From: Magnetovibrio sp.
GTDB lineage: Bacteria; Pseudomonadota; Alphaproteobacteria; Rhodospirillales; Casp-alpha2
NCBI GenBank assembly: GCA_002690705.1
Contig: NZFO01000005.1
Coordinates: 64,711 to 128,710 of the forward strand
Direction: 5' to 3'
DNA: 64,000 nt
Below are positions 4,586-60,109 of this stretch, piece by piece. The position numbers and the translations under genes were made by a program. The notes beneath the pieces are model-generated. The model did not search any database. It worked only from the letters and a program-made list of their open reading frames with translations, and was not told the origin of the DNA. Position 1 is the stretch's first letter. The number at the start of each line of letters is the position of its first letter.

Positions 4586-5851
4586 ATGACTGCGCCCCAG
4601 AATACAAGAGATACGAGTGAAACAGCGCGTATTCAGGATCTTCACAGCTATCAAGTTCTTGATACCCCAGAGGAGTTCGCATTTGATGACATCACAGAAT
4701 TTGCTTCAAAGGTTTTGGGGTTCGCCTTTGTGTTTATCAATTTAATCGATAAAGATCGTCAATGGGCAAAAGCAGCAAGTGGTTTACCCAGAGAGGCGGC
4801 AGAGTGTCACAGAGATGACAGTTTGTGCAACGTTGCTATTAATCGTAATGAAGCGTTGGTCATCCCCGATGCGCAAGCTGACGAGAGATATACTGAAATA
4901 GGATGTGTCCGCGAGGAGCCGAATGTTCGGTTTTATGCAGGCATGCCGCTGATCAACAGTAAAGGGTTCGCCCTAGGTACAGTTTGCGTGGTTGATTTCG
5001 AGCCCCGAGAATTTCCTTATGAAAAAATTGAATTGCTTAAATCGATAGCACGCCAGGTTGTTGCTCAGTTTGAGCTTAAAAAGAGCATTAATGAAACCCG
5101 GGACTCTCACGGTAAGCTTAAGCAAGCATTAGACGATGCCAACAAGGCAAAAGAGATTTCAGAGCAATTTTTGAGAAACACATTTCCTAAAGCCATTGCG
5201 GAAGAATGGCTTATGTCGAAAAACGTAGAGGCAAAGTATCATGATGGTGTAACTATAGGCTTCACTGATTTTGTAAATTTTACTAATAATTCGGAGGTGA
5301 TAGAACCAGCGGAGCTAATCCACAGTCTAAATGAATACTTTTCACTCTTTGACGAAGTTTGTTCAACGTTGGGTATTGAGAAACTTAAAACTGTCGGAGA
5401 CTCTTACATGTTTGCGGTTGGTCTTCCTGAAAGAAGTCGCTTTCATGGTGTCCGAGCTTGCCTCGCAGCGCTTTTATTTCAAAAAACGGTAACAAACGTA
5501 AACTCTTTGCGTGCTCAAAAGGGTCTTCAATCGTGGTCTATGCGGATTGGTATCAATTCTGGCGCAGTAATGGCAGGAGTGGTTGGGACGAAAAAATTTG
5601 CATATGATATCTGGGGCGACACCGTCAATTTAGCCTCAAGATTTGAGCAAGTCAGTGCAGAGGGTAAAGTTTGTATATCAGAGTCCACTCATTACGCTAT
5701 TAAAGATTTTTTTGAATGCGAATCTAGAGGAAAAGTTGATATAAAAAGTAAGGGTTTGGTGGAGGCATTTTGGTTGGTGCGCCTCAAACCTGAGTACTCA
5801 TCTGATGAGGCCGGCTATGTGGGAAATAAAACGTTATTTTCCCGCATCTAG
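4586..5851 (+). CDS. GAF-domain class III adenylate cyclase
   Basis: A soluble 421-residue cyclase making cyclic AMP from ATP. An N-terminal GAF domain (about 20-165) is followed by a helical linker (about 165-200) and a class III cyclase domain (about 220-400). The metal-binding aspartates are Asp228 (GFTDFVNFT) and Asp272 (KTVGDSYMF). The adenine-selecting pair is a Lys in EKLKTVGD and Asp341 in FAYDIWGD, which predicts ATP rather than GTP. The transition-state residues are Asn348 and Arg352 (NLASRFE). There is no transmembrane segment, so the GAF domain probably senses a cytoplasmic ligand. It stands alone, preceded by a gene relic and followed by a convergent amidase gene. The start ATG at 4586 follows GGGAG and AGAGG purine runs. 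Confidence 0.92.
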   Translation: MTAPQNTRDTSETARIQDLHSYQVLDTPEEFAFDDITEFASKVLGFAFVFINLIDKDRQWAKAASGLPREAAECHRDDSLCNVAINRNEALVIPDAQADERYTEIGCVREEPNVRFYAGMPLINSKGFALGTVCVVDFEPREFPYEKIELLKSIARQVVAQFELKKSINETRDSHGKLKQALDDANKAKEISEQFLRNTFPKAIAEEWLMSKNVEAKYHDGVTIGFTDFVNFTNNSEVIEPAELIHSLNEYFSLFDEVCSTLGIEKLKTVGDSYMFAVGLPERSRFHGVRACLAALLFQKTVTNVNSLRAQKGLQSWSMRIGINSGAVMAGVVGTKKFAYDIWGDTVNLASRFEQVSAEGKVCISESTHYAIKDFFECESRGKVDIKSKGLVEAFWLVRLKPEYSSDEAGYVGNKTLFSRI

Positions 5852-6170
5852 CTGTACTGCTTCAAATAGAACCTGGCTGTCTTTTTCTCGATTTCGTCAC
5901 AGTAACAATATTTACTGACATCAGTTTGACGTCATATCAATAATTTTAAGTAACATCTGACCCTCGCACTAGTAGAAAGGATCATTGTTTAAAAAAAATT
6001 TTAATAATCAATTAGGTTAATAGTAAATTTTTGAGGTATATTTTTTGCCTTGTGGTCAACTGCTTGAACGCAGTCGTTTTGCATGCTGCGCGTTTCATAA
6101 TCTTTAAAAGATCGTATCGGCTTTAATTTCCTCATTTTTTGGTTGTTAACGAGATTTTTGAATACTTGTC
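5852..6170. other. AT-rich spacer between convergent genes
   Basis: This 319-base spacer separates the cyclase from the convergent amidase gene. It contains the paired TGAC-type palindromes described separately and no gene-like frame. No strong GC stem with T-run was found to serve as terminator for either gene. Confidence 0.5.
5916..5934. promoter_or_regulatory. paired TGACRTCA palindromes, possible operator
   Basis: TGACATCA at 5916-5923 and the perfect palindrome TGACGTCA at 5927-5934 are separated by three bases. Their centres are therefore 11 bp apart, one helical turn, the geometry of two dimer sites on one DNA face. The position between convergent gene ends is odd for an operator, so this may be chance. 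Confidence 0.25.
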
Positions 6171-7343
6171 TTATTGCCTAACTATTGATTGGTCGAGAAC
6201 ACGAACAAGCTCAAGTAGTTGTCTATCACTGCCTACTGGACCAATAAAAGATAGCCCGACAGGCCCTCCCTCAACGGTGCCAGCAGGAATGGATATCTGA
6301 GGTAACCCAGCTAATCCTGCGATGCACAGCAATTCTAGAGCGGCTGTTCGGAAGGTGTTAAGCTCATTCTCACCGGCAGTTTTTAAAGGAGCCGGACCAG
6401 GACTGGTTGGAAGCATCAGAAATCCGTCCTCACCCATTAGATCCCGTAATTGGGCGGTAATTTTATTCCGCGTATTGCCAGCTGCGCTCATTGAAGCCTT
6501 CGAAACTTTTGAAGCCATTATGAAACGTTCTTTTACGCCGGGACCGAAGGTAGGATTAGTTGTCGTAATCCAATCGCCATGAACACTCCAAATTTCACCT
6601 GCTTGTAAGGTTTGAAAACACTCACGCCATTGGCTTATATTCGGAGTTAACGCAATGTTTTTGGCAACCCCATAAAAATTTTGTGCGAGATTTACTAAAT
6701 GTGATATGGCGGCGTTGGTAGCTTCTCCGACCCTTTTAAATGCCCCTTCAACCCGCAGCAAACGTGGATTTAATGACAATTTGTCTGTCATGCCGTATGC
6801 AGCGCCTACGCGGCAGAATGTTGTGCTATCCTGCGCGAACCAACCTACGGTATCAAAACTAGGAGCTAGAGGCATGGCTTGATCGAGATTAATAGCACCA
6901 TGAGTAGTTCGGATTCCAAAGATACCGCAGAATGAAGCAGGTAGTCGGACAGAACCGCCGGTGTCGCCGCCAAGGGCGAAGTCTACTAGGCCTGCTGCAG
7001 ATGCAGCGGCCGACCCTGAGGAGGATCCGCCCGGCACTCGGTTCGGAGCGGCACTGTTGAGGGGAGTGCCATAGTGTTTGTTAACACCCATTAAACTGTA
7101 TGCGATTTCATCCGTATGCGTCTTGCCAGTTAATTGGCCGCCAGCATCCAAAAGAGCGCTGACCGCTGAAGCGGTATTCTCTGCTGGTGACGAGCTTGCG
7201 GCCTTGACCGGATGCCCGCAACCGGTAACGTATCCAGCAATATCATATACGTCTTTCACGCCAAAAGTATATCCGGTTAGCGGCCCTGTCGCCGAGCCAT
7301 CAACCGTGATTAATTTAATAAAAGCATTTACGGGATCATGCAT
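6171..7343 (-). CDS. amidase signature family hydrolase
   Basis: A 390-residue cytoplasmic amidase of the GatA/AmiE superfamily. The Ser-cisSer-Lys triad is visible: Lys30 (FGVKDVYD), Ser107 in the GGSSSGSA loop and nucleophile Ser131 in GGDTGGSVRLPAS. The 24-residue spacing of the two serines is that of the family. It is shorter than typical bacterial amidases (450-500 residues) and near the size of plant indole-3-acetamide hydrolases, so a small-amide hydrolase is plausible, but the substrate is unknown. It is not adjacent to gatB or gatC and is unlikely to be the tRNA amidotransferase. The start is ATG with no strong ribosome binding site. It is monocistronic and convergent with the cyclase. 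Confidence 0.88.
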   Translation of the reverse strand: MHDPVNAFIKLITVDGSATGPLTGYTFGVKDVYDIAGYVTGCGHPVKAASSSPAENTASAVSALLDAGGQLTGKTHTDEIAYSLMGVNKHYGTPLNSAAPNRVPGGSSSGSAAASAAGLVDFALGGDTGGSVRLPASFCGIFGIRTTHGAINLDQAMPLAPSFDTVGWFAQDSTTFCRVGAAYGMTDKLSLNPRLLRVEGAFKRVGEATNAAISHLVNLAQNFYGVAKNIALTPNISQWRECFQTLQAGEIWSVHGDWITTTNPTFGPGVKERFIMASKVSKASMSAAGNTRNKITAQLRDLMGEDGFLMLPTSPGPAPLKTAGENELNTFRTAALELLCIAGLAGLPQISIPAGTVEGGPVGLSFIGPVGSDRQLLELVRVLDQSIVRQ

Positions 7344-7820
7344 TTTTAAATATCCAATTTAAGCAAGGGTGTCAAAATCTTCAAAAACGAATTAGAGATT
7401 TTACTGATGCCTCACTTGTTTTAATAAGCAATAATGTATTTGGGGTGCACTAGCTATCTTTGTACAGGCGTCGCACACTCTTAGGCTCGATCACATTGTT
7501 GTAACAGTGAATAATAATTCTGATCCGGGTGATGCCTCATTTGCGCATTGGATATGAAGACGGTGACAGATTGAAGCATAAAAATTGTAACCTTTGCATA
7601 CCAATTTTCACAATATTGCGGTGTTTGCTATCAGATTTAAAGTTTCGACTGCAATTTCCAGAGCTTTTTTAATATAATTAATTGGCTTCAGAATGTTACT
7701 CGGTAAACATGTCCATTGTGGCATTTAGATCATTGCTCCTAAATTTGTTCAAGATTTGAATTTAGTTTTTATTAAGCAGCCGACCTTCAAGTTTCGGAGG
7801 TATATGGGGAGACCAATTCT
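7344..7820. other. divergent 477-base spacer with an imperfect direct repeat
   Basis: The spacer lies between the divergent amidase and oxidoreductase genes and must carry both promoters. The element TGATGCCTCAYTTG occurs twice, at 7405-7418 and 7530-7543, with 13 of 14 bases identical. No coding remnant could be recognised in any frame. Confidence 0.45.
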
Positions 7821-31637: not shown

Positions 31638-32111
31638 ATGATGGCACAGAAAAAACCCGAGACTAAGTCTAGGAAAAAAATCATAATGCATACAACCGAT
31701 TTGGCTAATGTGCTCGCCGACAAAGCGGTTAAAAAATATGTGGAAGCAAAGACTTTAGAAAATTAGCAAACCACTGCTGCGTTAAAAGAGGGTGGTGATC
31801 CTACTAACCAGTGTAAAGAGGCCGTCACATTCGAAAAAGCTAATGTTCGAGCGATGGCTGAGGCAAATACTATTTTTTTCAGAGTTATCCATCAGGTAAG
31901 CGAGGCATCATTCAAAAATGTTCAAAACGCATTGCAAGATAACGCAAAAGCCACGAATCAGTCGTATAACTCAAAAACTGCTCAGGGCGTCTTCAGGATA
32001 CAGAACGATTTGGTAAAACCATCGTATCAAAAAGCTATAATCGATGGTCAGCGCATTTCTGAGATGACCGTAAAACCTACAGAAACTGCCGTTGCTCCAA
32101 TATATGAGTGA
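31638..32111 (+). pseudogene. phasin family protein, interrupted by in-frame TAG
   Basis: A frame of 158 codons starts at tandem ATGs (31638, 31641) behind a strong GGAGAGGG site. It runs through a TAG at 31764-31766 after 41-42 codons and ends with TGA at 32109-32111. The part after the stop is clearly phasin-like: a long amphipathic helix region and the closing RISEMTVKPTETAVAPI, equivalent to the conserved end of alphaproteobacterial phasins that coat PHA granules. The Lys-rich head also fits. The reading frame is otherwise undamaged, so this looks like a recent nonsense mutation. A product restarted at 31854 would lack a third of the protein. Confidence 0.75.
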
Positions 32112-32282
32112 GCGAACGCCGCGGTTAGGCAAATAAGGAAGTAGCGCTCTGCTTTAGGTGTTGCTCTCAACGCCGTCTAGGGTGCCTACAATGGAACCTA
32201 TTGTGATAAACTTAACTTGTCGCACCAGTTTTTGTCGAGTGACCGTTGTCAAGTCCGGCTTATTAGGTCAACGTGACGTATC

Positions 32283-52093: not shown

Positions 52094-52681
52094 ATGACTT
52101 ATGACCGTTCAAGCAATATTTTACAATTGGGAAGTTATGCACCCAAAATTGCTGACGACGCTTTCATAGCGTCCACAGCTGTGATTATCGGTGATGTAGA
52201 AATTGGTGAGAAGTCTAATATCTGGTATCACTGTGTTGTCCGCGGAGACATACATGAAATTAAAATTGGACGAAATACAAATATTCAAGACGGATCGGTT
52301 GTTCACGTAGCACGTGGTCGGTTTGGCACTTACATAGGAGACAATGTGACTGTTGGACACATGGCCCTTATCCATGCTTGTACCCTTGAGGATAGCTGTA
52401 TGGTTGGAATGCACGCAACAGTAATGGATGGGGTCGTTGTAGAGAGTGATGCTTTAGTTGCCGCAGGAAGCTTAGTCACACCGGGGAAGCGGGTGCCGAC
52501 AGGAGAGATGTGGGGGGGCTTACCTGCTCGTTTTATTCGGAAGGTTAACAATAGTGATGTTACAATGATGAAACGTATTGCGCCCGGGTATGTCGAGCTC
52601 GGGGGAGAATACCGCGATAATGGGCTCGACTTGCGTCAACTATTTCCAAACGGGCGAGCGCCAAAAGAGCGCTCTAAATGA
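52094..52681 (+). CDS. gamma-carbonic anhydrase family protein
   Basis: A 195-residue left-handed beta-helix trimer protein. Hexapeptide repeats run from about 20 to 140. The three zinc ligands are probably the His in SVVHVARG and the two in TVGHMALIHAC, as in CamH/YrdA-type proteins. It may hydrate CO2 or be a structural homologue like the complex I gamma-CAs. Its tail overlaps meaB by four bases (ATGA), so the two are coupled. GGAGAG stands before the ATG. Confidence 0.92.
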   Translation: MTYDRSSNILQLGSYAPKIADDAFIASTAVIIGDVEIGEKSNIWYHCVVRGDIHEIKIGRNTNIQDGSVVHVARGRFGTYIGDNVTVGHMALIHACTLEDSCMVGMHATVMDGVVVESDALVAAGSLVTPGKRVPTGEMWGGLPARFIRKVNNSDVTMMKRIAPGYVELGGEYRDNGLDLRQLFPNGRAPKERSK

Positions 52682-53646
52682 ATTTTTCTCAAACCGCAGA
52701 GAGCTTATTGGATCGTGTGTTAAAAGGCGAAACAAGAGCTATGGCTCGGATGATGTCATTTGCAGAGTCGTCCCGCGACGACCATCGTGTGCACCTTGGC
52801 TCTCTATACAAATACGCTGGACATGCCCATGTAGTGGGGCTGACTGGCGTACCGGGGAGCGGAAAATCAACCTTGGCTCGTTGCATAACTCTAGCCTTAC
52901 GCGAGACTGGAAAGCGTGTTGGTATCGTTGCGGTCGATCCCTCAAGTCCTTTCTCGGGTGGCGCGATATTAGGTGACAGGGTCCGGATGGGCGATTTAGC
53001 AACCGATAGCGGTGTTTTCATCCGCTCATTGGCGACACGGGGTTCCCTCGGTGGGCTGGCCCGAGCAGCACTCGACACGGCGGATATTATGGATGCAGCT
53101 GGTTTTGATATTGTTCTCATTGAGACCGTTGGTGTTGGCCAAGATGAGATCGATATCGCGACTGCGGCTCACACTGTCATCGTTACGTCAGCCCCAGGTC
53201 TGGGGGACGGTATTCAGGCAATTAAGGCCGGAGTTCTGGAGATTGCAGATGTGCATGTTGTTGCCAAAAGTGATCGTCCGGATGCAGAGAGGACACTCGG
53301 AGATTTAAACGCAATGTTGAATCTTGGTCTGGCTGGTCGCGGTCTTTCTGAATGGGCTGTGCCAGTAATCGCAACAAGCGCCGAAACTGGCGATGGGGTA
53401 TATGATTTGGTTAGACTGATAGATGAACATTTTTCGCACCTTAAGCAGAGTGGTGAGCTATTTGCGCGTAGAAAAAAGATAGCGGAAATGCGAGTGCTTA
53501 AGGCAGCTGAGGATATCGTTCGAGAACGGATTCAATTAAACTGTGGGGATGAAATAGGCCCGATATTTAATGATGTTTTCCAACGGAAAATTGATCCATT
53601 GACGGCAGCAAAAATGGTATTAAAAAGGTTAAACCTTGTTGAGTAA
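52678..53646 (+). CDS. meaB: methylmalonyl-CoA mutase-associated GTPase MeaB
   Basis: A 322-residue G3E-family P-loop GTPase that protects and reloads B12-dependent acyl-CoA mutases. Walker A is GVPGSGKST (57-65); VAVDPSSPFSGGAILGDRVRM, the long base-type switch, IETVGVGQ and the terminal mutase-binding helix are intact. It is coupled to the upstream carbonic anhydrase gene. No mutase subunit is adjacent; the only mutase in the window is icmF at the right end, which already has its own MeaB-like domain, so a separate methylmalonyl-CoA mutase is expected elsewhere. Confidence 0.95.
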   Translation: MNFSQTAESLLDRVLKGETRAMARMMSFAESSRDDHRVHLGSLYKYAGHAHVVGLTGVPGSGKSTLARCITLALRETGKRVGIVAVDPSSPFSGGAILGDRVRMGDLATDSGVFIRSLATRGSLGGLARAALDTADIMDAAGFDIVLIETVGVGQDEIDIATAAHTVIVTSAPGLGDGIQAIKAGVLEIADVHVVAKSDRPDAERTLGDLNAMLNLGLAGRGLSEWAVPVIATSAETGDGVYDLVRLIDEHFSHLKQSGELFARRKKIAEMRVLKAAEDIVRERIQLNCGDEIGPIFNDVFQRKIDPLTAAKMVLKRLNLVE

Positions 53647-53933: not shown

Positions 53934-55307
53934 ATGAATACAGTCGCCAAGCGTATAGCGCAACATATTCACAACTTGAATTGGAGAGATGTCCCAGATA
54001 ACGCCATTTATTGGGCTAAGATTGGCATCCTTGATACCATCGGGGTTACCCTCGCGGCTTCGAATGAACCCTGCGTCCGGTTAGCGGGGAGTTTGCCCGG
54101 AACCGGAGACTCATTTGGGCGAGCATTTATTTACGGGCGTGGCACTCGAACATCAGTCATGGATGCTGCGTTTGTTAATGGGGTTGCCTCTCATGCGCTG
54201 GACTTCGACGATGTTAACAACCACATAGGCGGACACCCCTCGGTGCCTCTGGTGCCGGCTATATTTGCGCTTGGAGATGATTTGGGCGTTTCCGGCCGGG
54301 ACGCCTTACTCGCTTACATCGCGGGGTTTGAGACGGAGACCCGCATTGGTCTCGGCGTTAACCAGCATCACTATGAGAAAGGGTGGCATCCGACAGCGAC
54401 TCTTGGAATTTTTGGAACCGTCGCTGCGGCTAGTCGTTTACTGGGTTTAGATGCTGAAAAAACGGCTACTGCACTCGGCATTGCAGTATCTCTAGCTAGC
54501 GGGGTCAAAGCAAATTTTGGAACTATGACCAAGCCGCTCCATGTTGGACAGAGTGTCCGAAACGGTCTAATGGCTGCTTATTTGGCTCGGGAGGGGTTTA
54601 CGTCCAACTTGGAAGCGTTTGAGCACCATCAGGGATTTTTAGAAGTTTTTAATGGCGAGGGACTTCACGATATAACCCGGACCTTTGCGGAGTGGGGCAA
54701 CCCTTGGAATGTGACCAACCCCGGACCAAACATAAAACAGTATCCGTGCTGTGGGTCTACCCATGGAGCAATTAACGCGATTATTCGCCTTCGAACAGAG
54801 TATCGTCTGTGCCCAGAGGATGTTGAGCGAATTGAGGTGCTGACAACTCCAAGGAGATTGCCGCATACAAATAACCCTGACCCGCAAAATGGCCTAGAGG
54901 CTAAGTTCAGTCTTCATTACGTAACTGCGCGCGCTCTTATCGATGGCACGGTGCGCTTGGCAGATTTTAATGAAGGTGCTGAAAAGGATGTCGCCGCACG
55001 TTCTTTAATGTCCAAAATTACTGTTGGAATTCATCCGGACATGTCCAATCCCGATCAAGATGGATACGGCGCAGAGGTAATCGTTCGGACAACGGGTGGC
55101 CGTGATTTGCGTGCCCGTGTAGACCACGATGTTCTTCGAGGTCCCGAATATCCAATGTCCGATGCAGAGCTGTATGATAAATTTAAAGACTGTGTTTGGA
55201 GCACGGTGGGAGCAAACAATATCAGATCACTCTATGATCTGTTATCCAAATTAGAAAAAATGAGCAATATTAGTAGGTTATCTGACTATATTGAGCGCTT
55301 TAAATAG
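53934..55307 (+). CDS. MmgE/PrpD family protein
   Basis: A 457-residue member of the MmgE/PrpD superfamily (2-methylcitrate dehydratase, itaconate decarboxylase and many of unknown substrate). The family features are the N-terminal helical domain with FVNGVASHALDFDDVNNHIGGHPS, an expected active-site stretch, GWHPTATLGIFG, and KQYPCCGSTHGAINA in the lid domain. No methylcitrate synthase or prpB genes are adjacent, so the substrate is undetermined. GGAGAG lies eight bases before the ATG. The 287-base spacer before it shows nothing. Confidence 0.9.
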   Translation: MNTVAKRIAQHIHNLNWRDVPDNAIYWAKIGILDTIGVTLAASNEPCVRLAGSLPGTGDSFGRAFIYGRGTRTSVMDAAFVNGVASHALDFDDVNNHIGGHPSVPLVPAIFALGDDLGVSGRDALLAYIAGFETETRIGLGVNQHHYEKGWHPTATLGIFGTVAAASRLLGLDAEKTATALGIAVSLASGVKANFGTMTKPLHVGQSVRNGLMAAYLAREGFTSNLEAFEHHQGFLEVFNGEGLHDITRTFAEWGNPWNVTNPGPNIKQYPCCGSTHGAINAIIRLRTEYRLCPEDVERIEVLTTPRRLPHTNNPDPQNGLEAKFSLHYVTARALIDGTVRLADFNEGAEKDVAARSLMSKITVGIHPDMSNPDQDGYGAEVIVRTTGGRDLRARVDHDVLRGPEYPMSDAELYDKFKDCVWSTVGANNIRSLYDLLSKLEKMSNISRLSDYIERFK

Positions 55308-55351
55308 TGTACGCAAATCAACACCTTAAAACTTTATTGAATGTATTGTTT

Positions 55352-57012
55352 CTAACATTTAGTCATAACCTTTATTCCCGGTCCACTGCATATCTGCTTA
55401 ACTCTGTCATTTTCTCGGATGCGTATGGAAACGCTCTTGTTTGGTGACCTATTCTTCACGCATTGATCCTAGTCTGGCCACCACAACCCTTTGTGTTCGT
55501 GGGCGTTTTGCAACTAATTAGTAGGTGCTCCCGTTAAGTGGTTGTTGGTCTAATACCTGTGTTTAATCTTATTCGGCGGATTGATAACGGCTGCAATGTG
55601 GCCAGAGCAGACTAAAACAAATCTCAACTGGCCTGAGTAGAACTCTGTTGCTGCGAAAGTGGACTACCACGGCGCAATATGGGCTGCACGGTTGGAGAGC
55701 ATGTAGAAGAAAATTCTAATTGTCCCGAGATCTATTTTAACGCCATCAATGTCTATGCCACCACATCAGTGAAGTTTATTCTCGAGGTAAATTTTCTACA
55801 AATAGAAAGCGTGTATGGCAGCAGGCATACGTTTTGGGTCTGAATTCCAAAATAGTAGATCAAAAGGAAGAGGTTCTCTGTTCAACAGATAGTTTTTTGT
55901 GACAAAATACCAAAGCAGATCATTTGATTTGAGTAGATTGAAGGCAGTTGCCATGTCCCTAACTTCAAGATCGCCCCGCTCGCTTTTTTTTCCAGCCTCA
56001 GTAATTGCACATCGTTTATAAATACCCTCAGGTCAGCCGTTTCGGTAAGGCCTACTACCGTGGTGAAAAAAGTAGCAGAATTTATTCGGTTATCTTGAAT
56101 TTTGCAGCGAACTGAGCTAGTGACAAAGCTAATATTGTGCTACTGATGAAATTATTCAGGTTTATCTTATTTTCTTCAGTAATTCCCTCAATCACACCCA
56201 CGGCTGTCACCGGACCATTTCATATGTTATAATTGAGGGGTCCGTTTCCTAGCTTTGCGTCTCGATTAATCCAAGAAATCACGAATACCGTGTGACCTTG
56301 ATCAGTGGCCCATTCTATAAATGAATTGTTTTCGCGGAGATCGAGAATGTAGTACTTGTTGATCAATGGGGGCGTAATAAAAAGTTGTGTTTTTGGCACC
56401 TTTTCTGTTTTTGGATCATATTGAATTAATTTTTTAGACTATTGCGAAACATAATTGTTCCAGATGTTGCCGCAATACTTATACCAACTTGAAAGTCGTT
56501 TGGCTGGCTCATTTTATTATACAGTTGGTCGTTCCAGCTTTTGTATACTCTATGAGGTTTCCCTCACCCTTAAACGGATTTCTGGCACCAGATTCCGCCG
56601 TCGCACGTAAAACCTCCGGGTTGAGTACAACACAGTTTGTGGGAGACAAAGAATTAAAATACTGGCGGACACAGAAAGTCATCTGAGCGCTTGATTTCAT
56701 GTTTAGGTCATGCAATTCGTTATATAAGATTGGGTCCAACGCGCATTCAATAAATAAGCTTGTTTGATAAAATAAACAAATAGATGGTCGATCTAAGTAT
56801 CGTCAAAGAATAACAAGTCGTAATGGTCTGGATTTATCACTAGCGCGAAATCAGCGCCCATCAACTGTTTTGATGTTGACCGCCAGAGGCTTAAGTAGTC
56901 ACCCCACAGTTCAAGTTTTTTTAATTATTTTTTCTAGGTTGACCATAACCGTTTTAGTCACCCCTGCGAGCTCTTTTCGCACATTCAGGGGATCGGCCTC
57001 AGGTAAGCTGTT
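55352..57012 (-). pseudogene. phaC: decayed PHA synthase (phaC)
   Basis: Six-frame translation of this apparent gap gives class I PHA synthase sequence in order along the minus strand, about 555 codons, the normal length. Pieces include LELWGDYLSLWR, FIKQAYLLNA, RQYFNSLSPTNCVVLNPEVL, LINKYYILDLREN, HTVFVISWINRD, NSATFFTTVVG, FNLLKSNDLLWYFV, SGHIAAVINPP and GLWWPD. Stops interrupt it at 56793-56795, 56220-56222, 55796-55798, 55664-55666 and 55469-55471, with frame changes near 56740, 56435 and 56095. Two stops are TAG where Trp (TGG) is expected. The catalytic Cys of GYCIGG is Phe and the catalytic Asp before His-Ile-Ala-Pro is Ala. It cannot make an active enzyme. Confidence 0.88.
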
Positions 57013-57368
57013 TGAATTAAGTTAATTGCACATAAAACCTGCAAGAGGTCCGTGAGAACGGAGAGCAAGTTTAGCCATCAATATCGAAATTCCGACTGAG
57101 TAGGATAATGGATTTTCCAAAAACGATTATGCGTTCGTAAGTTGCGCTCTCGAGTTTGCTTGCAAATTACCTTTACGGTGCGGACACTATTCAAATTGTT
57201 TGTAATACTTTAACTATTTGAATGCATCATCGAATGCAAGTAAACTGCTTCGGTCGCAAAGGACGTACAGTCCAGATGGGTTTTGCTGCTTTACGGCGTG
57301 TCACAAATACTTGGTCGCTGAGGTCAAGCGCGGCCTTAGGTTCAATTGGAATGAGGGGAGCGACGTCC
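57013..57368. other. spacer between phaC pseudogene and lipoprotein gene
   Basis: A 356-base divergent spacer. The lipoprotein frame is open upstream to 57222, but those residues are basic and not lipoprotein-like, so they are probably untranslated. Nothing else was recognised. Confidence 0.45.
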
Positions 57369-58559
57369 ATGCCTTCGATAAGACTCAATTATTTGCTGAA
57401 ACGTAGCATAAGTCTCGTTGCAATATCGTTCACACTGAATGGTTGCTCTCAAGTCCCAGATGCTGTTAACCCTGTTGAATGGTATAATAGCACCGTTAAC
57501 TTTTTTTCTGGTGATCAAGAGAATAGGTCTCAAATGGGCAACGGCTCGATGGCCGAAGACTCTGCTCAGGCTAAGCTGTTTAAAGATGGAGGCTCGGCTG
57601 GTGGAGAAGCCAAGCAAGGGTTTCCCAAACTCTCACGGGTAGACCGCCAAGCTGAATATGACGCAGCGCGCAAGCGGGGGGGATTAGTCGCGGATGTTCA
57701 GGGCCGTCAGTATGCGCCGGCTATTGCACGTCAACAAGAACCAGCGTCCCAGGTAGCTACAGCGCCCCCACCAGAGCCTACAAGTGCCATTGAAGCTGTT
57801 CGTCCGAACGTCGGATCAACCCAATCGTCACCCTCGGCGCAACCCACTATTCCTGTGATTTCCTCCACTGGGGAGGCATTGACCTCGACGACCCCATCAC
57901 TCAGCTCGGGACTTCCAACTGAGGCGGAACAGCAGGCCAGTGAATTACGTCTCCGTAAAAAACTTGCGGAAATACGAATCCGAGCTGGTCAGCAAGGTCC
58001 AGCGTTACCGTTAATGAATGCTGCCGCTTTGGCGATGGGGCCAGATCAATTTGGAACTGTCGTGGTTTCATCAGATGGTGTTCAACCTATGAAAGACATA
58101 TCGTCTTTGAGCACACCAAATTTAAATACGGCACTAACAACCTCCAAAAATCAAAGAGGTATTCTTGCGTATTTGGCCCGTCAACAGAGTCCGTTGACGC
58201 CAAACGCTACTAAAATAGCGACGATTCAGTTTTCCAACGGGTCCAGCAATTTAAGCGCGGCTGACAAGAGCATTCTCTCTGATGTGCAGCAGCTACAGCG
58301 GGAACGGGGAGGAAAAATTTACATTGTGGGGCATGCCTCAAGACGGACCCGAACCATGGATCCAGTTCGGCACAAGATGGTAAATTTTAATGTTTCGATG
58401 GCACGTGCTAATGTGGTTGCTAGAGAGTTATTGCGACTTGGTTTTAAGAAGGAGGAATTGGTAGTTGACGCGCTCTCTGATACCGCGCCGCTGTACCTTG
58501 AGTTTATGCCAACAGGTGAAGCTGGCAACAGGCGTGCTGAGATTTATCTAAGAGGGTAA
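57369..58559 (+). CDS. OmpA-domain lipoprotein
   Basis: A 396-residue outer-membrane lipoprotein. The signal ends in the lipobox LNGC (Cys26), followed by a long Ser/Pro/Ala-rich linker of about 220 residues with low complexity and a C-terminal OmpA-like peptidoglycan-binding domain: IQFSNGSSNLSAADKSIL, IYIVGHASRRT and NVSMARANVVARELLRLGF with the expected Arg and NRRAEIYL end. It should tether the outer membrane to the cell wall. The ATG at 57369 is supported by GAGGGGAG six to eight bases upstream. Confidence 0.88.
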   Translation: MPSIRLNYLLKRSISLVAISFTLNGCSQVPDAVNPVEWYNSTVNFFSGDQENRSQMGNGSMAEDSAQAKLFKDGGSAGGEAKQGFPKLSRVDRQAEYDAARKRGGLVADVQGRQYAPAIARQQEPASQVATAPPPEPTSAIEAVRPNVGSTQSSPSAQPTIPVISSTGEALTSTTPSLSSGLPTEAEQQASELRLRKKLAEIRIRAGQQGPALPLMNAAALAMGPDQFGTVVVSSDGVQPMKDISSLSTPNLNTALTTSKNQRGILAYLARQQSPLTPNATKIATIQFSNGSSNLSAADKSILSDVQQLQRERGGKIYIVGHASRRTRTMDPVRHKMVNFNVSMARANVVARELLRLGFKKEELVVDALSDTAPLYLEFMPTGEAGNRRAEIYLRG

Positions 58560-58804: not shown

Positions 58805-60109
58805 ATGGGTAAACAAATACGGGTTGGGATTGCTGGTTTAGGTAATGTGGGTATAGGCGTGGTCAGGGTTCTGTCTCACAACTCAGATTTGTTATTGAGT
58901 AGAGCTGGCAGAGCACTAACCATTACTGCTATTTCTGCTCGAGAAAAAAATCGTGATAGAGGGGTGGATCTTACAAAATTTGATTGGCACGGCAATGCTT
59001 GTGATCTTGCACGTGCTGAGAACGTTGACATTGTAGTTGAATTAATTGGTGGTGATAATGGTGTAGCTAAAGACGTTGTCGAGACCGCCATTTCGAATGG
59101 TAAGCATGTCGTCACCGCCAACAAAGCACTAATTGGTCATCATGGGACGAATTTAGCAAAAGCGGCAGAGTTGAATAAAGTGGTGTTGGCTTTTGAGGCC
59201 GCGGTAGCTGGTGGTATACCTATTGTGAAAGCATTACGCGATGGCTTGGCCGCAAATCGTGTCGAGCGGCTAACTGGTATATTAAACGGTACTTGTAATT
59301 TCATTCTCAGCAACATGGCGGAAACGGGTCGCCCATTTGCTGAAATTTTGGCAGAGGCAAAGGCATTGGGATACGCTGAGTCAGATCCAACCTTTGATAT
59401 TGATGGTATAGATACGGCGCATAAGCTCTCCATTCTTGCTGCACTTGCTTTTGGAACGGAGGTTGATTTCGCTAATGTCCACGTGGAGGGCATTCGCCAT
59501 ATTTCACCCATAGATATCGAGTTTGCTCGCGAATTAGGTTATGGTATTAAGCTGTTAGGTGTGGCCGCAAGGGTACCAGATGAACTGGGCGGAGGTATCG
59601 AGCAACGGGTTCACCCCTGTATGGTTCGAAAGAACGCGCCTATTAATCATGTCTCTGGCGTTTTTAACGGTATCGAGGTTATAGGTGATTTTGTGGATAC
59701 CACTATTTACGAGGGCCGAGGAGCTGGTCAGGGGCCGACAGCGTCTGCGGTGGTTGCTGATTTAGTTGATATTGCGCGCGGCCTGCGCATTCCAGCTTTC
59801 TCGCTGAAGGCAACCGACCTTCGACCTCCAAATACTATACCTATGGGGCGACGTGTTGGAGCTTATTACGTGCGTTTCATGGTCGTAGATCGACCAGGGG
59901 TCTTCGCTGATATTGCGGCGGTTCTTCGCGATCATGACGTATCGATGGAGTCTGTTCTTCAACGCGGTCGATCACGGGGTGAGCGGGTCTCGGTAGTTAT
60001 GACGGTCCATGAAACTCGCGAAGAGGCGATGCAAAAAGGCTTGCAAGCGATAGCGGCGCTTGACTCTGTTGTCGAACCGCCCAGCTTGATACGGATAGAA
60101 GATCTTTAA
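58805..60109 (+). CDS. hom: homoserine dehydrogenase
   Basis: A 434-residue NAD(P)-dependent enzyme for threonine and methionine synthesis. The Rossmann motif GIAGLGNVGIGV is at 8-19, VTANKAL and the NGTCNFILSNM segment mark the catalytic domain with EAKALGYAESDPTFDIDGIDTAHK carrying the key Asp and Lys. A C-terminal ACT domain (about 355-434, DRPGVFADIAAVL) indicates threonine feedback control. In many Rhodospirillales an aminotransferase gene precedes hom; it is absent here. The 245-base spacer before it shows only weak GC hairpins and no riboswitch that I recognise. Confidence 0.95.
   Translation: MGKQIRVGIAGLGNVGIGVVRVLSHNSDLLLSRAGRALTITAISAREKNRDRGVDLTKFDWHGNACDLARAENVDIVVELIGGDNGVAKDVVETAISNGKHVVTANKALIGHHGTNLAKAAELNKVVLAFEAAVAGGIPIVKALRDGLAANRVERLTGILNGTCNFILSNMAETGRPFAEILAEAKALGYAESDPTFDIDGIDTAHKLSILAALAFGTEVDFANVHVEGIRHISPIDIEFARELGYGIKLLGVAARVPDELGGGIEQRVHPCMVRKNAPINHVSGVFNGIEVIGDFVDTTIYEGRGAGQGPTASAVVADLVDIARGLRIPAFSLKATDLRPPNTIPMGRRVGAYYVRFMVVDRPGVFADIAAVLRDHDVSMESVLQRGRSRGERVSVVMTVHETREEAMQKGLQAIAALDSVVEPPSLIRIEDL

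Follow-up and report, generated by a model that had tools for sequence, protein, structure and literature searches.

A nearly full-length class I PHA synthase pseudogene among five broken PHA genes in the draft genome of an uncultured Magnetovibrio

The closest described counterpart of the locus reported here is the class I PHA synthase (PhaC; TIGR01838, PF07167), the polymerase with which bacteria build up a bioplastic store of carbon. Pseudogenes of this kind have been met before in pelagic seawater: according to one report (PMC4326521), an internal TAG was found in 7 of 55 phaC clones from the Japan Trench and the Nankai Trough, and these clones were taken as pseudogenes. As described there, the clones are partial, come from amplified DNA and carry no genome context, whereas the sequence presented here is near full length, has known neighbours and is accompanied by other dead PHA genes. 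A patchy distribution of PHA genes has been described for SAR11, where one study (PMC12113158) presents a working phaCAB locus and deduces that the genes were gained and transferred inside this group. To that extent, patchy PHA capacity in aquatic Alphaproteobacteria is common to both cases, but SAR11 illustrates gain and transfer, while here we find decay in place. Among the matches listed in a search of the open-licence literature, no title or abstract reported a whole PHA pathway as pseudogenes. Fragments of phaC pseudogenes from seawater are already known; the genome-scale collapse of the PHA pathway is new.

The window, i.e. the whole 64,000-nucleotide stretch of DNA that was analysed, belongs to a draft genome of Magnetovibrio sp. 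(G000; 21 contigs totalling 3,026,532 bases, with a completeness of 96.5%). Between positions 55308 and 57221 it is devoid of any ORF of 100 codons, which leaves a gap of 1914 bp between ORF edges. The first-pass annotation had described this gap as a blank region of about 1.9 kb hiding a near-complete destroyed phaC on the minus strand, with at least five stops and at least three frame changes, and had proposed that one continuous frameshift-aware alignment over about 550 residues should be sought. We carried out such an alignment with an aligner written for this analysis; the reference was an intact PhaC of 623 residues from G002, a genome of the same genus. The remnant matches residues 43–620 of that protein over 570 codon pairs (50.2% identity), and the lesions are of the kind that had been claimed, though more numerous: 9 in-frame stops and 6 frameshifts, with only two gaps of one residue each. 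The alignment score is 1355, compared to 33–41 in eight shuffles and 33 on the opposite strand. A profile search with the class I model TIGR01838 returned five pieces at the locus, all on the minus strand and four of them containing stops, and no further match at E 0.001 in the rest of the G000 genome. In G006 and G029 PhaC itself starts only at about position 23 of the G002 sequence, and the remnant thus corresponds to nearly the whole gene. Judging by its sequence, the region 55358–57078 is a nearly full-length destroyed class I phaC. A scan for promoters and terminators yielded 6 and 3 sites, about equal to the shuffle means of 5.1 and 1.8.

The remnant resembles intact class I synthases in its homology and in its position between MmgE/PrpD and OmpA genes, but differs from them in having no reading frame, no nucleophile Cys and no catalytic Asp. 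At the positions that we take to form the Cys-Asp-His triad of PhaC, the alignment to G002 reveals that Asp has become Ala (REDH to RAAH), as had been noted before, and that His is retained. In the GYCIGG nucleophile motif one codon is absent; the loss of Cys stands, while its replacement by Phe, as originally read, depends on the alignment, in which Cys is either Phe or deleted. An open frame with the Cys-Asp-His triad, which characterizes a functional class I PHA synthase, is therefore missing. The features that mark a pseudogene are all present: homology over most of the protein, several lesions, loss of purifying selection and an intact syntenic orthologue.

Table 1. Features of the phaC locus and of other broken PHA genes in G000, as read from the sequence
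Feature	Coordinates	Strand	Basis and details
Class I PHA synthase (phaC) pseudogene	window 55358..57078	minus	frameshift-aware alignment, TIGR01838 pieces, shuffle control
Gamma carbonic anhydrase-like gene, intact, synteny marker	window 52094..52681	+	profile match, synteny
meaB, intact, synteny marker	window 52678..53646	+	profile match, synteny
MmgE/PrpD family gene, intact, conserved phaC neighbour	window 53934..55307	+	Pfam, synteny in relatives
OmpA-family gene, intact, conserved neighbour on the other side	window 57351..58559	+	homology start 57351
Homoserine dehydrogenase (HSD), intact, synteny marker	window 58805..60109	+	profile match, synteny
Broken phasin 1	window 31716-32141	+	residues 41-179 of 183-residue relative, 35.3% identity, 2 stops
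Broken phaB	L087:9561-10279 (contig C9, near PhaR)		56.5% identity, 3 stops, 1 frameshift; intact in G002
Broken class III-like phaC	L087:6872-8076 (contig C9, near PhaR)		46.4% identity, 3 stops, 7 frameshifts; intact in G002
Broken phasin 2	L088:6224-6721 (contig C18)		38.6% identity, 3 stops

The neighbours of the remnant are intact (Table 1), and their order (RNA helicase, gamma carbonic anhydrase, MeaB, MmgE/PrpD, phaC on the opposite strand, OmpA, homoserine dehydrogenase) is shared by the relatives as far as their contigs extend. The equivalent position is occupied by an intact phaC in two genomes of the same genus, G001 and G002, and in two from the same family, G006 and G029. The spacing between MmgE and phaC is near zero in G006, G029 and the window, unlike in G001 (L059) and G002 (L058), where it amounts to about 1.2 kb and includes an ORF of about 300 codons. 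The longest ORF of the OmpA-family gene begins at 57222, about 129 bp upstream of the start of homology, and calling the gene from that position may place its start too far upstream.

Altogether, five broken PHA genes (phaC, class III-like phaC, phaB and two phasins) were found in G000, distributed over three contigs. The class III-like PhaC, whose G002 counterpart carries a GYCMGG motif, and PhaB are encoded near PhaR; phaA, located between them, is open (80.5% identity). PhaR itself is open over 173 residues, and homology to the C-terminal tail of its relative extends past its stop; PhaR has thus lost this tail. Among the PHA genes in the comparison, phaA alone appears whole. In phasin 1, which contains a Phasin_2 match above the cut-off at 31827–32102, one of the stops lies near the end and a frame of 85 codons from an ATG is left; the gene is at its syntenic place, between genes that are presumably D-alanyl-D-alanine carboxypeptidase-like and binding-protein-like. 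No intact class I or class III synthase was found in the 96.5% complete draft, the missing ~3.5% of which could hold one, and the class III synthase model matches only the two wrecks, phaC and class III-like phaC. The model of the intracellular depolymerase (PhaZ) has no match in G000 either, a result of little weight, as matches occur in only 18 of 48 family genomes.

In the part of G000 that was compared gene by gene with G002, internal stops fall on PHA genes. In four neighbourhoods, all selected for holding PHA genes, 36 G002 genes of at least 120 codons still match at E 1e-10, vanished genes being uncounted; internal stops were found in 5 of the 7 PHA genes and in none of the 29 others (Fisher one-sided p 5.6e-5), with the stop of PhaR counted as a shortened end. 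Two of the 29 controls, homoserine dehydrogenase and a gene that we take to be UDP-glucose pyrophosphorylase-like, show one frameshift each, in a 5' extension upstream of the conserved start; we do not regard these as lesions.

The remnant has also escaped purifying selection at the level of single residues. Of the residues invariant in four relatives, 41.4% are altered in phaC, compared to 6.9–13.4% in five flanking genes. Over both comparisons phaC lies at 41–43%, and with three taxa the range is 7.5–21.6% for eleven genes that are open (nine from outside the PHA pathway, plus phaA and the shortened PhaR, with control C26 left out); homoserine dehydrogenase contributes 25 invariant residues to this comparison and 134 to that with four taxa. 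At codon positions 1+2 the three-taxon K is 0.297 for PhaC, 0.332 for class III-like PhaC and 0.255 for PhaB, as opposed to 0.061–0.185 for the eleven open genes. After subtraction of the constrained part, which is an estimate, about 0.2 substitutions/site remain for each of the three genes, and hence phaC, class III-like phaC and phaB look similar in age. Simulated neutral drift of 0.15, 0.2 and 0.25 under assumed mutation weights produced 6.9, 9.7 and 10.9 stops per 570 codons, compared to the 9 observed. Substitutions in the remnant comprise 155 GC-to-AT and 63 AT-to-GC changes, a bias weaker than in the controls. The phasins yield K of 0.529 and 0.439 from only two relatives and are undatable, because five intact genes in the same comparison span 0.108–0.462; some of these, presumably TetR-like (0.462), ProC-like (0.249) and a binding protein (0.251), reach values as high as some ghosts. 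The decay of phaC fits free drift of ~0.2 substitutions/site, and its loss is accordingly not of very recent date. The first-pass annotation, which had called the decay fairly recent, was right in a relative sense only, given that 41–43% of invariant residues are altered and that the drift amounts to ~0.15–0.25 substitutions/site; it recognized the dead phaC correctly, and overlooked both the death of much of the remaining PHA pathway and the broken locus in relatives.

PhaC is otherwise common among the relatives, with matches above the cut-off in 31 of 37 genomes of the family and in 165 of 198 genomes of the order that are at least 90% complete (20 of the latter have no match). The phaC locus has nevertheless been lost more than once. 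At the same place G018 retains only the two ends of phaC, and G033 the first 227 of 601 PhaC residues with 2 stops, the remainder being gone there. In G024 the contig ends ~1 kb past MmgE without a trace of phaC, and the genome has no match elsewhere. In a tree built from 11 concatenated proteins, one of them PhaR, with missing data in several rows, G018 pairs with G029 and G024 with G006 (both at 100). Since the sister genomes G029 and G006 are intact, the losses in G000, G018 and G033 are separate, assuming loss without regain, and phaC was probably lost independently in G024 as well. The GC content of the G024 stretch (L064, C154) is 70.7%, compared to 54–58% in loci of the remaining members of the genus to which G024 belongs.

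Other PHA genes are also missing from some of these genomes. No match for PhaC, PhaZ, PhaR or phasin was found in G011, and none for PhaB above the cut-off. In the 12-kb stretch downstream of PhaR in G018 we did not find class III-like phaC, phaA or phaB. G029, with its intact phaC, has kept the class III-like gene and only a fragment of phaB, with no phaA match at the PhaR cluster; a fixed order in which phaC is always lost first is ruled out by this genome. In the family, phaB above the cut-off is missing from 5 of 6 genomes without phaC and from 8 of 31 with it (one-sided p 0.014, with kinship and draft gaps ignored). Remnants of a second phaC occur in G018 (L063:6292-6730) and G029 (L066:2542-3281); because a stop and a frameshift coincide in the two, they probably represent one inherited dead copy. 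In G028, the contigs C295 and C349 hold PhaZ and PhaB matches with stops, due to decay or draft errors, and this genome also encodes an intact PhaC.

Could the lesions be errors of sequencing or assembly? The genome is a draft of 21 contigs, and of three G000 stretches checked, two contain scattered N bases. However, the window is free of N, the five broken genes, spread over three contigs, come from a single pathway and have 29 clean neighbours, and about one quarter of the first and second codon positions that are invariant elsewhere are altered along phaC, far above read error; we consider an artefact very improbable. Expression through recoding or programmed frameshifting, for which no support was found, would have to cope with 9 stops, 6 frameshifts, the loss of the catalytic Asp and Cys and the alteration of 41% of invariant residues, and we reject it as practically inconceivable. 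We also reject, as quite unlikely, the idea that phaC decayed as a dispensable copy because another synthase does its job. G001 and G002 do have three long class I model matches each (above the cut-off one in G001 and two in G002), plus a class III-like protein, but G000 has no second class I match, its class III-like copy is dead, and its phaB and phasin genes are likewise broken.

A more serious competitor, to which we give somewhat less than an even chance, is general genome erosion under weak selection, with the PHA genes merely among the dispensable ones; it would compete with a storage-specific cause of the decay, and not with the identification of the pseudogene. The branch of G000 is 0.356 long, as opposed to ~0.21–0.23 for G001 and G002 when measured from the node they share with it (~1.5 to 1.7 times as long), its GC content is 46.5%, whereas single loci give 57.5% for G001 and 59.1% for G002, and its genome is smaller (3.0 Mb versus 3.6 and 5.5 Mb). 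Genes for PhyH and proline racemase have become ghosts in it as well. A crude survey of ~515 kb, non-random in that the window, L087 and L088 were included for their PHA genes, detected 17 ORF-free gaps of at least 700 bp, which may contain short genes. Four are PHA ghosts; the other 13 are not, and two gaps lie at stretch ends. From 5 of these 13, ten stop-free pieces were searched: PhyH or proline racemase accounted for five of the pieces and DUF6787 for one, and four remained unmatched. Against erosion speak the absence of internal stops from the 29 non-PHA genes, and the loss of the phaC locus in G018, G033 and perhaps G024 without such an AT shift (GC 54–71%). A storage-specific cause is not proven, because other genes of G000 decay too. 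Among the gaps surveyed, one in L201 (G000:C9:70000-89999; 5335-7161) holds remains of two genes, for a PhyH dioxygenase and for a proline racemase, and a 2.3-kb gap in L106 (G000:C2:44711-64710; 5231-7578) without a 100-codon ORF includes the 99-residue piece that matches DUF6787.

We are confident that the remnant is the chromosomal class I PHA synthase gene turned pseudogene, which has stayed at its locus since PHA granules ceased to be made and has drifted without constraint, in a genome with at least five broken PHA genes and in a family where the locus has been lost separately in other members. Decay would have begun when selection for PHA storage was relaxed. The inactivation of phaC, class III-like phaC and phaB would then have followed in a similar time span, as indicated by the measured divergence minus the estimated constrained part, and the stops, small frameshifting indels and substitutions that can be read from the sequence would have built up. 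phaA may persist as a thiolase that serves other routes, and the shortened PhaR through control beyond PHA or as a case of lagging decay. The survival of PhaR fits the roles beyond PHA that a study in Bradyrhizobium (PMC10888616) describes for this protein.

These results suggest that an uncultured bacterium gave up a storage system kept by most of its sampled relatives. Such loci appear blank in gene tables, where a carbon store that has been lost counts as plain absence; here the decay can be read in place from five broken pathway genes with clean neighbours and intact orthologues in related genomes. The surviving PhaR offers a test case for PHA-independent roles. It is possible, though we put this forward only tentatively and think it rather doubtful, that PHA storage is repeatedly dismantled as a unit in this Rhodospirillaceae-like family, with synthases, reductase and granule proteins breaking in one episode, independently in several lineages, and that PhaR outlasts the pathway and maybe controls other carbon functions. 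The natural series of intact, ghost, partly deleted and empty loci makes it possible to ask why PHA storage is abandoned and which of its parts go first.
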